Shown piece after piece: positions 101-24,980 of a stretch of DNA of 64,000 bases. The notes beneath the pieces are model-generated. The model did not search any database. It was not told the origin of the DNA and saw only the letters and a list, made by a program, of their open reading frames with translations. Positions within the stretch are counted from its first letter, which is position 1. Each line of letters begins with the position of its first letter. The stretch spans positions 558,001-622,000 of the forward strand of contig NZ_WTYO01000002.1 in the NCBI RefSeq assembly GCF_009827515.1, read 5' to 3'. The stretch is from Pelagerythrobacter marinus. GTDB lineage: Bacteria > Pseudomonadota > Alphaproteobacteria > Sphingomonadales > Sphingomonadaceae. Made by a program: the position numbers and the translations under genes.

Positions 101-3100
101 CTATTCCGGCTGTTCTGCTTCCGTCTTGTTAACAGGGAAGCCCAAGAGCTTTCGAATAGACACTTGCCCCTCGTCTGTATCACCTTCCAGACCTTCAACA
201 AACTCTCTCAGTTGGCCGACAAGGTCTCGGTCTGCAGCTTGCATGCAATCTTTGAAGATGTCCTTCTTTGCCTCAATGAACGCCTTGGCTTCTGACGAAT
301 TCTCCCTCGCCAGAGGAAGCAAGTATCGTTCAACTGTCCGGTTGGGATTGGTTCGATAGGGTAAACGGTCTAGTATGGATCGGAGATGCTCGAGAGCAGC
401 AGAAACCGCGCTGGTATGTGAGTTATGCCGATCGAAGAATTCGCTCTCAAATCTTCTTTGCGAGCTCGGCGGTAGAGATTTCAAAAGTATCCCGTAGTTC
501 CGCTCCGATTTTTTCGGATCGTACGCCCCCGTCATAACTTTCAAAGCATTACTCATAAGGGGTTCAAAAAATTCTGTGGATGTAAGTTTAACGGGCTTAA
601 CCGTGTTTCGCTCGCACAGCAACTTCACCAATGCGCCATCTTCATCGAGTTCCTTCTGCCAACGAGCAGAGCCCACTGACTTCAGCATTTCGGCGATACT
701 GGTCGTGAAGCTCTCCCATCCAATCTCCGTCCGACCTTCAACTTCCCTCAGCATTGACAGGGAAACGCGCCCGAGCTCTGCCGATTGCCAGTATGCTGCT
801 ACAGATGACGTTCCCACTAAGGACAACAGCGTCTGAAACTGTTCACCAAGGGCCTTCCTGAGTTTCAGAAAATTTGAAATGACGAAAGTCGCATCAGGCA
901 GAGTTGCTTCGTTCCGAGCTAGCATGGCTCGAGCCACCGATTTGAACAGCTCACGGCCGTCTTCCTCGGAACATGCATGCTTCAACACGTATTCGAAGGC
1001 CGCTGTACGGTTAGCGATTTCCGCAATGGAGTTCACAAAGTCTGGCTCGAGTTCGCTGGTAGTTAGTTTCGCCCGGAACCAGTTGTACTCAGTCAACATA
1101 TTCCCGAAGATTGGCGCCTGTTGCGGTTGCGGCATTCCTGGTTGTTCGTGCTTGTACTCGCGCATGGCCAGCCAGAAGAATAGGGCCGTCGCATGACCTC
1201 GAATCTTTCCTCCATCTTTGTCGGCATGATAGGCATAATACATCGGCGCGCCGGATTGGAAGAAGTCTTGAAGCGCTGTTGTGGCGGGCTCGTTACCGAT
1301 GGGAACCGCGCTTTGGAGCACGTCCACTGTTTTAATAAGCGCTCTGAACTCGTCTGTGCTAATGTCGAGCTTCTTCGCCTTTGCGTTCTCTAAGGCAACC
1401 TCAAGCAGATGGACGCATTGCTCTACATCAAACAGGTGCGACAGCTCAGCCCACATGTAGGAAAAGAAGTCACTTCCCGTTGCATACTGGTCGAGCGCTG
1501 CAACGATGTCCTTTTCATTCGCAGGTCTTTTGAACTGGCGAATGTGGTAGTCGGTTTCATCACAATCAAGCGCCGCGCCTAGGACCGCAGCGGAACCTGA
1601 AGGCAGCACAATTGTCGGCAGCACCTTGCTCACCGCGTCTGTGCCCTTCGCCGACTTCACGGCATCACAGATCGCCGCGACGATCTTGATCCAAGACCGC
1701 CCATGCTGAAGTGTCTGCTTCGCGGGTTCTGCGGGTAGTCCAGCATTTATCGCTCGGACCATGGCTCCCACGAAGCTGGGCAGTGTAGCCTCTTCGATGA
1801 AGGCAGAAGCCTTCCATAGTCCTGACAAACTCGGCATCTGAGCGAAGGGGAAGGCCTTCACCGCCTGTAATGTTGTTGCCAACGTCTTTTGGCTGTACTC
1901 CAAGTCTGTGCGATCGATGTTGACTGCTGCAATATTCGAAATGGCCGCGCTGAGCTCCGTCAGATTCTCGGACCCCCAGTCCTGGCTCAATTCATCGACG
2001 AGCCTGTTCAAGTTCTCCGCAAATCCATTCACGGATGCGGAATCTGCGAGTTCTTGAAGCAAGTCCGGCTGATCTACCGTCAAAGCTCGTTGGATTTGAA
2101 CGTGCGAGAGAACCTGGAAGGCTAAATCGCGATCGACATTGTACGCTAATGAAGCCAGATCTCGGAAAATGTCGGGCTGGTTCGCGAGCTGAACCATCCG
2201 AGGATCGATCGTATCGCTGGACCGCAAACTACCCGGGTCGGAAAGAAGCTTTGTCTTGTTCGCGACAAATACCGCGACAGACTCGGGTGCGATAGCGCCC
2301 TCCCACTGTTCCCAATAGCTTGCTACATCGTTGATAAACGATATCACCTGGCGTGGTGTCGGAGGTGCATTCGAGGACTCGATGTTTAAATTGAAAATGC
2401 GGTAAATTCTTTTGATCGAGTCTAGAGAGATTTGATCTCCGACACTTGCAATGAACTTTTCTCGAAAGAACGTTGACGCGTCTGAAAGTACCGGAGGCGA
2501 AACATTGAACACGATATCGAACGATTTTCTGAACACATCGCCAGCAATGATACTCGACTCGCTTGGAGGCGGCGAAGCACATTCGCCGCCCATAGCGCTG
2601 AGCGCAATTCGTTCAGCATACGGCACGATGGCTATGATGCTTCCATCGGTCTCAGCGCCGAAGTGTTCACCATAGAAGACTCCTCGAACTTCAGACCATA
2701 CGTCCGGAATTCGCTTCGATGGCAGCCGGTCTATGTTGTCGAAAACTACTATCAAGCGATTCTGATTGTCCTGCAGCCTCGCCGAAATCTCTCTGAATAT
2801 CTTTGTAAATTCATATTGAGTCGGATCTTCGTCCCGTATTGTCTGATTTACCCGCCTCACCTCCGCGTCTCGCGAAAAGATCGAGATCACTTGCGAAAAC
2901 GCTTCTACCCAACGTGCCGACGTCCGCTCTGAAGGCAAGCGCCTCCAGACGGCTATGAGGAATGACACAACATAGATTCCAAGCAATATGCCCGCCGCTG
3001 CGGCACCCGCGTTGAACTTGACCGCGCCAGTGGAATCTCGGAGCGCTGTCGGCGCAAGCCACAAATACAAAAGCGGCGTCAGGTATAGAAATATAACAGT

Positions 3101-3559
3101 AAAGAGTCCAAACTTACTGAATTTCTTGTAATTGTTTGTTTCTATCTTTTGATTTTTGCTTTCGATCTTCCTACGCCATTCGTCAATAGCGCTTCCTTTA
3201 TCAGGGAACTCCTTCGAACCCCAGCTCAACAATGCTTCGAGAAATGCTCTTCGGAAATGTCCGGTCTGGTTCGCCCAAAGATCGAATGTAAATATGTGAT
3301 ACGTGCGTCCCGCATCAACCTCAGCAAGCGCCGTCTTAGCCATTCGGACGATGGAGGATTTGCCTGAGCCCCATGAGCCTTCGATTCCGACAGCGTGGTC
3401 GCCGGACCTAAACTGTGAGATGGCCCTTGCAAGAGCATAGGCGGTCCGTGCGTGTCCGCGGCCAGAGAATTGATCTGTCTCGGTCGGGCTATCCTGAAGT
3501 ATAGTCCGACGTACGGCTCTATTCTTGTCGTCTGATTGGCCTGACACTCTTCCCCCCAT
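101..3559 (-). CDS. KAP family P-loop NTPase (membrane-anchored)
   Basis: A large 1152-residue protein. It has a Walker A motif GSWGSGKSS at residues 61-69, two hydrophobic helices at about 149-169 and 183-204, then a Walker B segment LIVVFDNID at about 269-277. Membrane helices inserted between Walker A and Walker B are the hallmark of KAP NTPases (Kidins220/ARMS and the F-plasmid exclusion protein PifA). The C-terminal 800 residues show no motif I recognise. The chosen ATG lies 24 nt after the lepA stop; an open frame continues upstream but only as an out-of-frame reading of lepA. The gene is much poorer in GC than its neighbours and uses codons rare elsewhere in the window, which indicates horizontal transfer. 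A role in phage exclusion is an inference from the family and context. Confidence 0.85.
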   Translation of the reverse strand: MGGRVSGQSDDKNRAVRRTILQDSPTETDQFSGRGHARTAYALARAISQFRSGDHAVGIEGSWGSGKSSIVRMAKTALAEVDAGRTYHIFTFDLWANQTGHFRRAFLEALLSWGSKEFPDKGSAIDEWRRKIESKNQKIETNNYKKFSKFGLFTVIFLYLTPLLYLWLAPTALRDSTGAVKFNAGAAAAGILLGIYVVSFLIAVWRRLPSERTSARWVEAFSQVISIFSRDAEVRRVNQTIRDEDPTQYEFTKIFREISARLQDNQNRLIVVFDNIDRLPSKRIPDVWSEVRGVFYGEHFGAETDGSIIAIVPYAERIALSAMGGECASPPPSESSIIAGDVFRKSFDIVFNVSPPVLSDASTFFREKFIASVGDQISLDSIKRIYRIFNLNIESSNAPPTPRQVISFINDVASYWEQWEGAIAPESVAVFVANKTKLLSDPGSLRSSDTIDPRMVQLANQPDIFRDLASLAYNVDRDLAFQVLSHVQIQRALTVDQPDLLQELADSASVNGFAENLNRLVDELSQDWGSENLTELSAAISNIAAVNIDRTDLEYSQKTLATTLQAVKAFPFAQMPSLSGLWKASAFIEEATLPSFVGAMVRAINAGLPAEPAKQTLQHGRSWIKIVAAICDAVKSAKGTDAVSKVLPTIVLPSGSAAVLGAALDCDETDYHIRQFKRPANEKDIVAALDQYATGSDFFSYMWAELSHLFDVEQCVHLLEVALENAKAKKLDISTDEFRALIKTVDVLQSAVPIGNEPATTALQDFFQSGAPMYYAYHADKDGGKIRGHATALFFWLAMREYKHEQPGMPQPQQAPIFGNMLTEYNWFRAKLTTSELEPDFVNSIAEIANRTAAFEYVLKHACSEEDGRELFKSVARAMLARNEATLPDATFVISNFLKLRKALGEQFQTLLSLVGTSSVAAYWQSAELGRVSLSMLREVEGRTEIGWESFTTSIAEMLKSVGSARWQKELDEDGALVKLLCERNTVKPVKLTSTEFFEPLMSNALKVMTGAYDPKKSERNYGILLKSLPPSSQRRFESEFFDRHNSHTSAVSAALEHLRSILDRLPYRTNPNRTVERYLLPLARENSSEAKAFIEAKKDIFKDCMQAADRDLVGQLREFVEGLEGDTDEGQVSIRKLLGFPVNKTEAEQPE

Positions 3560-22964: not shown

Positions 22965-24134
<1,170 letters not shown>

Positions 24135-24143
24135 TTATCCACA
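24135..24143 (+). promoter_or_regulatory. Perfect DnaA box upstream of ccrM
   Basis: TTATCCACA matches the consensus DnaA-binding 9-mer exactly. It lies 21-30 bases upstream of the ccrM start codon, where it would overlap the 5' leader or promoter. A perfect match is expected about 0.1 times by chance in a 64-kb window of this base composition (my estimate). A TTGACG -35-like element occurs on the minus strand at 24171-24166, but I see no convincing -10 at standard spacing. Confidence 0.55.
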
Positions 24144-24147
24144 GGGT

Positions 24148-24300
24148 GAGTCCAAGCGGACTCGGCGTCAAGCACCGATTTCGCGCGTGGCATCCGGCCG
24201 GTGCCGACCTTGCCGGAGAACGAAAGGAGTCCCCCACAAGATATTGAGTCCGCGCGATTCGGCCCGACTCGATATGCTGCGGGTGTTGCCCGAAGGACTC
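24148..24300. promoter_or_regulatory. Cluster of seven GANTC (CcrM target) sites upstream of ccrM
   Basis: GANTC occurs at 24148, 24159, 24227, 24246, 24256, 24266 and 24296. From base composition one site per roughly 330 bp is expected, so seven in 153 bp is strongly enriched. The three sites at 24246, 24256 and 24266 are spaced exactly ten bases apart. The gap between ccrM and rnhB contains no gene. In Caulobacter the ccrM promoter is itself sensitive to GANTC methylation, so an autoregulatory role is a reasonable inference. Confidence 0.75.
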
Positions 24301-24344
24301 AATTGCATCGCGAAAGCCGGGGGTTCGCGAACGCCGGCGGCGCG

Positions 24345-24980
24345 TCAGGCCGGGGCGGCGAACAGGTCCATCTGCGCGACGGGAGCGAAGCTGCGGCGGT
24401 GGAGCGGGGTCGGCCCGTGCAGCCGCAGCGCCTCGACATGGTCGCGCGTGCCATAGCCCTTGTTGCGTTCCCACCCGTAGTGCGGGTGTTCGCGCGCGGC
24501 GGCGACCATCATCCGGTCGCGCCATTCCTTGGCCACGATCGAGGCGGCGGATATCGCCGGCTCCTTGCCATCGCCGCCGACGATCGCGCGCGCGGGCCAG
24601 CGCCATTCGGCCCGGCGGCCGTGCGGGGTCAGGTTGCCGTCCACCAGCACTTCGTCCGGATCGCGCGCCAGCGCCTCGGCCAGGCGGGCGACCGCCAGGG
24701 TCATGGCCAGCATCGTCGCGCCGAAGATGTTGAGCCGGTCGATCTCCGCCACTTCGACCACCCCCACGCCCCAGGCGCAGCGCCGCCGGATCGCCTCGTC
24801 GATCCGCGCGCGCGAGCCGGCGCAGAGCCGCTTCGAATCGTCGAGCCTGGCCGGTCGCGGCTTGCACAGCGCGACGGCTGCCGCCACAACCGGTCCGGCC
24901 AGGGGGCCGCGCCCGGCCTCGTCCACGCCGACGACCAGCGGCGTTGCACCGAACGACTGATGGGGAGTTGCACTGAACAT
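24345..24980 (-). CDS. rnhB: Ribonuclease HII
   Basis: A 211-residue nuclease that removes RNA embedded in DNA, including single ribonucleotides. VGVDEAGRGPLAGPVVAAAV carries the first catalytic Asp-Glu pair, and VLVDGN and AISAASIVAKEWRD the other conserved positions. The ATG at 24980 gives a 17-residue lead before the first strand. This start codon overlaps the ATG of the divergent dehydrogenase within the palindrome CATG, so one of the two starts may be misplaced. It lies upstream of ccrM on the same strand. Confidence 0.93.
   Translation of the reverse strand: MFSATPHQSFGATPLVVGVDEAGRGPLAGPVVAAAVALCKPRPARLDDSKRLCAGSRARIDEAIRRRCAWGVGVVEVAEIDRLNIFGATMLAMTLAVARLAEALARDPDEVLVDGNLTPHGRRAEWRWPARAIVGGDGKEPAISAASIVAKEWRDRMMVAAAREHPHYGWERNKGYGTRDHVEALRLHGPTPLHRRSFAPVAQMDLFAAPA

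Follow-up and report, generated by a model that had tools for sequence, protein, structure and literature searches.

A predicted NrdR-type operator built around CcrM sites upstream of ccrM in Pelagerythrobacter marinus

In Caulobacter, the ccrM promoter is activated by CtrA, with the site TTAA-N7-TTAA or TTAACCAT, and GANTC, the CcrM target, is present in its leader. Several other types of control bear on the locus described here. Caulobacter promoters with GANTC between the −35 and −10 elements are described as activated at 40–60 minutes (PMC4287350), and GcrA, for which the Caulobacter motif is given as YGAKTCG (PMC7987155), as recruiting RNA polymerase to methylated promoters (PMC7403470). 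NrdR requires two boxes and binds with spacers of 14–17 bp according to the account in PMC12051234; in each box, G:C pairs nine apart are described as critical for binding, and the boxes as lying upstream of and overlapping transcription starts (PMC9110341). An nrdR deletion has been made in Caulobacter (PMC12186491). Brilli et al. (PMC2877005) count GANTC ahead of genes of the cell cycle but derive no control from the counts, and published counts before ctrA reach five in Sphingomonadales (PMC8116508).

Upstream of ccrM in Pelagerythrobacter marinus, a cluster of GANTC sites is found, and comparison with relatives makes it rather likely that ccrM is a target of NrdR whose operator is also a substrate of CcrM, together with a core promoter and a DnaA box. 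In the accessible parts of the open-licence literature on NrdR, NrdR boxes, CcrM, Caulobacter and ribonucleotide reductase/GANTC, we did not find a paper placing ccrM under NrdR. The word methyltransferase is absent from the main text of a study of 186 proteobacterial NrdR regulons (PMC5343134). A report cited in PMC12176259 deals with something else, a possible contact between the NrdR protein of Acinetobacter and the adenine methylase AamA.

The conserved GANTC cluster in the rnhB–ccrM gap

All coordinates are positions in the window, the whole 64,000-nt stretch of P. marinus that was analysed (GCF_009827515.1, NZ_WTYO01000002.1, 558,001–622,000), and "family" in all counts is the family of this species (GTDB Sphingomonadaceae). 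Both genes are on the minus strand, with a gap of 231 bp (24114–24344) between the stop side of rnhB (24345) and the start of ccrM (24113). The ccrM product (Table 1) scores 605 bits against the NCBIfam CcrM model NF050803, below a cut-off of 830 that is tuned to Caulobacter.

The seven GANTC sites listed for this gap by the first-pass annotation are all present, and the excess of about fifteenfold that it gave comes out at 14-fold, with 0.50 GANTC expected from base composition in 149 start positions (231-bp gap). At the rate of the window as a whole, 79 GANTC in 64 kb, 0.18 are expected and the Poisson probability of seven or more is 1.2e-9, before correction for position; a harsher model, a first-order Markov chain of the gap, gives a mean of 1.36 and a probability of 0.00055. 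GANTC is scarce in the window, the 79 observed comparing with a mean of 301.5 in dinucleotide shuffles; ten occur within about 830 bp at 2280–3108, which is unusual for this window.

The rank of the cluster was checked in 81 stretches of the genome, window included, containing 1950 GANTC in 1,581,884 bases, with a 12-kb overlap included (about 1.57 Mb, or about 52% of 3,001,465). The ccrM gap is the sole place in them with seven GANTC in 153 bp, the runners-up being one cluster of five and eight of four. The cluster of five, the second densest, spans 109 bp (L270:8514–8622) and is flanked by a nadD-like gene and a gene for an M23 peptidase.

A ccrM orthologue is found in all 149 family genomes searched. 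One collection supplied 80 ccrM loci, the best 80 of at least 592, with flanks of up to 10 kb. In all 72 long loci, some 200-bp interval upstream of ccrM has 3 to 10 GANTC; compared with all other 200-bp intervals of its locus, it has the most in 68, ties in 3 and is beaten in 1 (duplicates were retained in this comparison, 109 loci). The background of GANTC in the relatives' loci is 0.235 per 200 bp. From other families, 40 loci were fetched, best matches first, out of 115 genomes with a ccrM match, some candidates being passed over because of contig ends. Of these alphaproteobacterial loci, 36 have at least one GANTC, and up to 8, in the 300 bp upstream of the ccrM match, and 4 have none there.

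The alignment of 106 family upstream regions, on which the box counts and the shuffle test also rest, omits three duplicates (L031, L038, L040) and one locus that is too short (L058); the 107 regions of the core-promoter count omit only the duplicates. In many of the 48 regions without site 6 in the same column, a GANTC has moved by one to three columns. The cluster upstream of ccrM exceeds chance and is conserved. Two outcomes had been named beforehand as counting against it, a similar density in many unrelated gaps and a loss of conservation between species, and neither is seen.

Table 1. Features of the ccrM locus (positions in the window; fractions are of the 106 aligned family upstream regions, N being the middle base of GANTC)
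Feature	Position	Strand	Description
ccrM, 382 aa	22965..24113	-	Pfam N6_N4_Mtase 214.7 bits, RAMA 76.2 bits
DnaA box, perfect, TTATCCACA	24135..24143	+	spans predicted ccrM transcription start
Predicted -10, CACCCT	24143..24148	-	from spacing and CANNNT pattern; start unmapped
GANTC site 7, proximal, -10 edge	24148..24152		87/106; N = C74, T8, A5
GANTC site 6, proximal, in spacer	24159..24163		same column in 58/106; N = G43, C12, A3
Predicted -35, TTGACG	24166..24171	-	TTGAC-N14-GANTC pattern
GANTC site 5, adjoining box B	24227..24231		55/106; N = C51, T4
NrdR-type box B, ACTCAATATCTTGTGG	24234..24249	-	13/16 to consensus
GANTC site 4, within box B half-site	24246..24250		93/106; N = C in 92
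GANTC site 3, spacer between boxes A and B	24256..24260		position kept in only 5/106
GANTC site 2, within box A half-site	24266..24270		86/106; N = G in 86
NrdR-type box A, CCGCAGCATATCGAGT	24267..24282	-	10/16 to consensus, C4 and G13 present
GANTC site 1, outermost	24296..24300		99/106; N = G in all 99
rnhB (ribonuclease HII), upstream gene	24345..24980	-	NF000595 225.7 bits, above cut-off

The predicted proximal core promoter and the DnaA box

Read in the orientation of ccrM, the proximal part of the gap has the layout TTGACG-N13-GACTC-A, with a second GANTC inside the spacer and the DnaA box after it. The element that we take as the −10, CACCCT, begins with the C that closes the GANTC at 24148. 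The pattern TTGAC-N14-GANTC is present in 86 of the 107 family upstream regions and in 23 of the 40 outgroup loci (88/107 and 25/40 with N13–15 allowed, 78 of the 88 enclosing another GANTC); on one strand of all family loci, 1.585 Mb, it occurs only 94 times, duplicates counted. A simple sigma-70 consensus scan gives 0 matches. The frame offers a predicted core promoter for ccrM across the class.

The middle base separates sites kept for methylation, where it is free, from sites kept for another reader, where it is fixed. At the two proximal sites it drifts while GANTC stays (Table 1), so that methylation itself looks selected there. The genome encodes GcrA (PF07750, 81.2 bits) and, as in GcrA-type promoters, a GANTC lies between the −35 and the putative −10; the proximal sites read CGAGTCC and GGACTCA, and YGAKTCG is absent at both. 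A hairpin GAGTCC-N4-GGACTC in the RNA, considered as the purpose of the proximal pair, is rejected because the variants of site 6 (GACTC in 12/58, GAATC in 3/58) disrupt the pairing. An rnhB terminator is rejected as well: no terminator-like site was found, and GANTC stays before ccrM even though the distance to the end of the rnhB match ranges from 186 to 3717 bp among the relatives whose loci reach far enough upstream.

Perfect DnaA boxes number four in the genome and matches to the reversed control pattern three, so the count alone carries little weight. In family ccrM upstreams a perfect box is present in 75 of 106, versus 3 elsewhere in 1.495 Mb, and 54 of the 77 such boxes begin 50 to 21 bp before the gene. 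Two others in this genome (L167:10128–10136 and L163:10668–10676) precede ftsZ, by about 90 bp, and mipZ, by about 115 bp (the latter identified by Pfam MipZ, 217 bits); DnaA motifs are also described for Caulobacter mipZ (PMC4287350). The fourth is inside a PglX/Eco57I-like methylase gene (L166:8093–10990), in a stretch with several GANTC triplets that may be a defence island. Since the box of ccrM overlaps the predicted start, repression by DnaA would be the simplest reading of its position.

The paired NrdR-type boxes and the competing readings

The distal part of the gap has two NrdR-type boxes 33 bp apart, with a 17-bp spacer and with C4 and G13 in both, scored against the NrdR box consensus. 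The spacer and the C4/G13 letters agree with the published requirements of NrdR, and an nrdR gene is present in the genome (TIGR00244, 173.7 bits, above cut-off). The facing half-sites of the boxes contain GANTC (sites 2 and 4): in the NrdR register, the G letters of site 2 fall at box positions 13 and 15, and the C letters that mirror them in site 4 at positions 4 and 2. The distal middle bases, which CcrM ignores, are near-invariant (G 99/99, G 86/86, C 92/93 and C 51/55 at sites 1, 2, 4 and 5), the GAGTC-N15-GACTC spacing is maintained, and the flanks are conserved past GANTC. At site 2, with column conservation of G 0.98, A 0.86, G 0.98, T 0.82 and C 0.92, the A and T that GANTC needs are less well kept than the letters for NrdR contact; as read from the list, 16 of the 20 upstream regions without GANTC at site 2 retain G13 and G15. 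The flanks of the pair, at 24217–24231 and 24283–24300, have GASTC-YTTYCG in common. The weak point of the NrdR reading is the geometry: the boxes are about 100–145 bp upstream of the predicted, unmapped transcription start, and a second ccrM promoter, as yet unseen, may be needed.

Single boxes with up to 3 mismatches are found at 8 places in the genome, the ccrM gap among them; by strand, there are 5 hits forward and 8 reverse, versus 3 on each strand for the reversed control. When pairs are scored with the consensus in 848 kb of the genome, ccrM and nrdA tie first at 23/32, both with C4/G13, and 21/32 is the most reached elsewhere. In the 76 loci of relatives, the ccrM upstream region is the unique best place for the plain consensus in 62; among permuted palindromic consensuses, 3 of 150 do better (70, 68 and 67), all three near variants with ACWC ends.

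A matrix was trained on 17 of the 25 nrdA loci of relatives, excluding the genome's own nrdA, 7 loci without C4/G13 in the called pair and one from another family (L195). In the 81 stretches (about 1.57 Mb), only nrdA (31.4 bits) and ccrM (25.5 bits) pass 16.2 bits. With this matrix the ccrM upstream region is the unique best place in 72 of the 76 loci (in L048, L060, L061 and L107 it is not), the best pair being spaced by 33 bp in 54 of them, by 32 bp in 13 and by 31 bp in 5, and 0 of 1201 random windows contain a locus maximum. GANTC is frequent in nrdA boxes, so that the matrix could be responding to it alone; shuffles were therefore made with the GANTC letters fixed and the rest permuted. 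The ccrM score of this genome is attained in 0 of 3000, and 94 of the 106 relatives exceed 16.2 bits versus 5 of 2120 shuffles (0.24%), while 60 of the 2120 match the score of their own locus. In 65 of those 94 relatives, both facing half-sites contain GANTC with the boxes 33 bp apart.

In the outgroups, 11 of the 40 ccrM upstream regions exceed 16.2 bits (versus 15 of 2000 shuffles) and 29 are below; some pairs are near-perfect (e.g., in L132), and outside the ccrM upstream regions (72,630 bases) pairs above 16.2 bits occur in 2 loci. The plain consensus does no better there than permuted ones, being the unique best in 19 of 40, equalled by 22 of 150 permutations; for single boxes, 43 of 150 permutations do as well. 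The link between NrdR and ccrM thus appears strong in the family and partial outside it, and control across the class is only partly supported. The elements themselves, their conservation and their rarity elsewhere are established at the level of sequence.

A factor other than NrdR, with a site like ACTCAA-N4-TTGAGT, could own the distal palindromes, the likeness to the nrdA boxes being then convergent or due to a factor shared with nrdA. The slightly higher scores of the permuted consensuses with ACWC ends would suit such a factor, as would CCACACC (left) and TTTCGTTC (right), which are conserved near the pair in relatives and have no explanation. We consider it unlikely, since the matrix, derived from nrdA alone, finds ccrM and nothing else near its score in 1.57 Mb, the spacing and the C4/G13 letters are as for NrdR, and the pair recurs above the threshold in 11 of the outgroup loci, near-perfectly in some.

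The first-pass annotation had instead suggested that the seven sites could act as a graded methylation sensor for passage of the fork. In such a model, GcrA or another reader of m6A would register how many GANTC are hemimethylated, and the letters flanking GANTC would matter little. The premise of the sensor holds, in that the cluster is non-random and conserved; the seven sites, the drifting middle base at the proximal sites, the presence of GcrA, and the distal CGATTCG at 24255 and CGACTCG at 24265, counted as fitting YGAKTCG, all go with it. A single homogeneous array is not what is found: the sites are split between a core promoter and a paired NrdR-type operator, site 3 is seldom kept, and the fixed distal middle bases, the constant spacing and the conserved flanks speak against it. 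Passage of the fork must hemimethylate all seven sites, so that fork sensing as such is compatible with this arrangement; the grading has no support, and we regard the sensor as distinctly improbable. A chance cluster in an AT-richer gap, toward which the Markov mean and the general over-representation of intergenic GANTC described for Alphaproteobacteria (PMC3973325) would lean, is rejected as next to incredible, being contradicted by the conservation of site positions in relatives and by the rank of the cluster in the sampled genome and in relatives.

Proposed control of ccrM, nrdA and related systems

With NrdR as the preferred factor, the gap would be the control region of ccrM, made of the core promoter, the DnaA box and the paired NrdR-type operator. 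The two GANTC sites of the core promoter, in the spacer and at the −10 edge, can make its activity dependent on methylation, probably with GcrA, and the DnaA box at the predicted start would allow DnaA to block initiation, or to tune it, in early S phase. NrdR with dATP and ATP, when there is little DNA synthesis, would bind the pair and lower ccrM along with ribonucleotide reductase; once dATP is consumed, it would release the ccrM operator. Because GANTC supplies the facing half-sites of both boxes, CcrM would methylate its own operator, which passage of the fork would leave hemimethylated, and NrdR binding may then change. The dNTP level, fork passage and methylation could meet at this operator. 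Binding by NrdR, the direction of its effect, its sensitivity to methylation and the ccrM start site are what we infer.

Many family nrdA promoters read GATTCAGTATCTAGTGG, with a GANTC one base before the box, in the register of ccrM box B. This register is seen in 12 of the 25 nrdA loci of relatives (L187–L211), or 9 of the 18 with C4/G13, and in the genome's own nrdA, whose operator is at about 2763–2812 of L212 (+ strand); beyond the 12, L189 and L209 have the same GATTC, the box being called there at an offset of two bases. In 9 of the 25 loci (L190–L193, L197, L200, L204–L206), another GANTC follows in the same arrangement, 11 bp further out. As GANTC costs the consensus A at position 3, it is probably kept in the nrdA boxes for its own sake. 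In a Caulobacter ccrM mutant, nrdA falls, and the nrdA promoter is described as having a conserved GANTC (PMC3973325); this fits methylation opposing NrdR and, equally, plain activation by GcrA. We propose only tentatively that one kind of composite operator, with CcrM sites as parts of NrdR half-sites, serves both ccrM and nrdA in sphingomonads, and that the strength of NrdR repression of the two genes would depend on the methylation state in which the fork leaves it.

Control of ccrM by NrdR, if real, would tie the epigenetic clock of these bacteria to the dNTP pools. CcrM sites within NrdR boxes, at ccrM and often at nrdA, would form a methylation-gated dNTP switch, and a single switch would couple the supply of nucleotides, the passage of the fork and the methylase by which the switch is reset.

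As in the Caulobacter ccrM promoter, GANTC sites are present before the gene. A CtrA site was not found, with no TTAA in 24114–24344; the predicted NrdR pair and the DnaA box are there instead. The sequence TTAACCAT, a CtrA half-site, is present in 45 of the 106 family ccrM upstream regions (versus 56 in all 1.585 Mb) and absent from the gap of this genome. With the DnaA-controlled promoters of mipZ and ftsZ, ccrM shares in this genome a perfect upstream DnaA box; the one at ccrM overlaps the predicted start. Like Caulobacter GcrA-type promoters such as ctrA P1 (PMC4287350), it has GANTC between the predicted −35 and −10; it differs from them in having two sites, in the fixed TTGAC-N14-GANTC frame with the second site fused to the predicted −10, and in the lack of YGAKTCG at these two sites. 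The NrdR operators of ribonucleotide reductase genes offer the closest likeness to the distal pair, both having two palindromic boxes of 16 bp that keep C4 and G13 and are separated by about three helix turns. Unlike them, the ccrM pair precedes the gene of a DNA methylase, lies at a greater distance from the predicted start and has GANTC in both facing half-sites; GANTC in one box is common to many nrdA promoters of the family.
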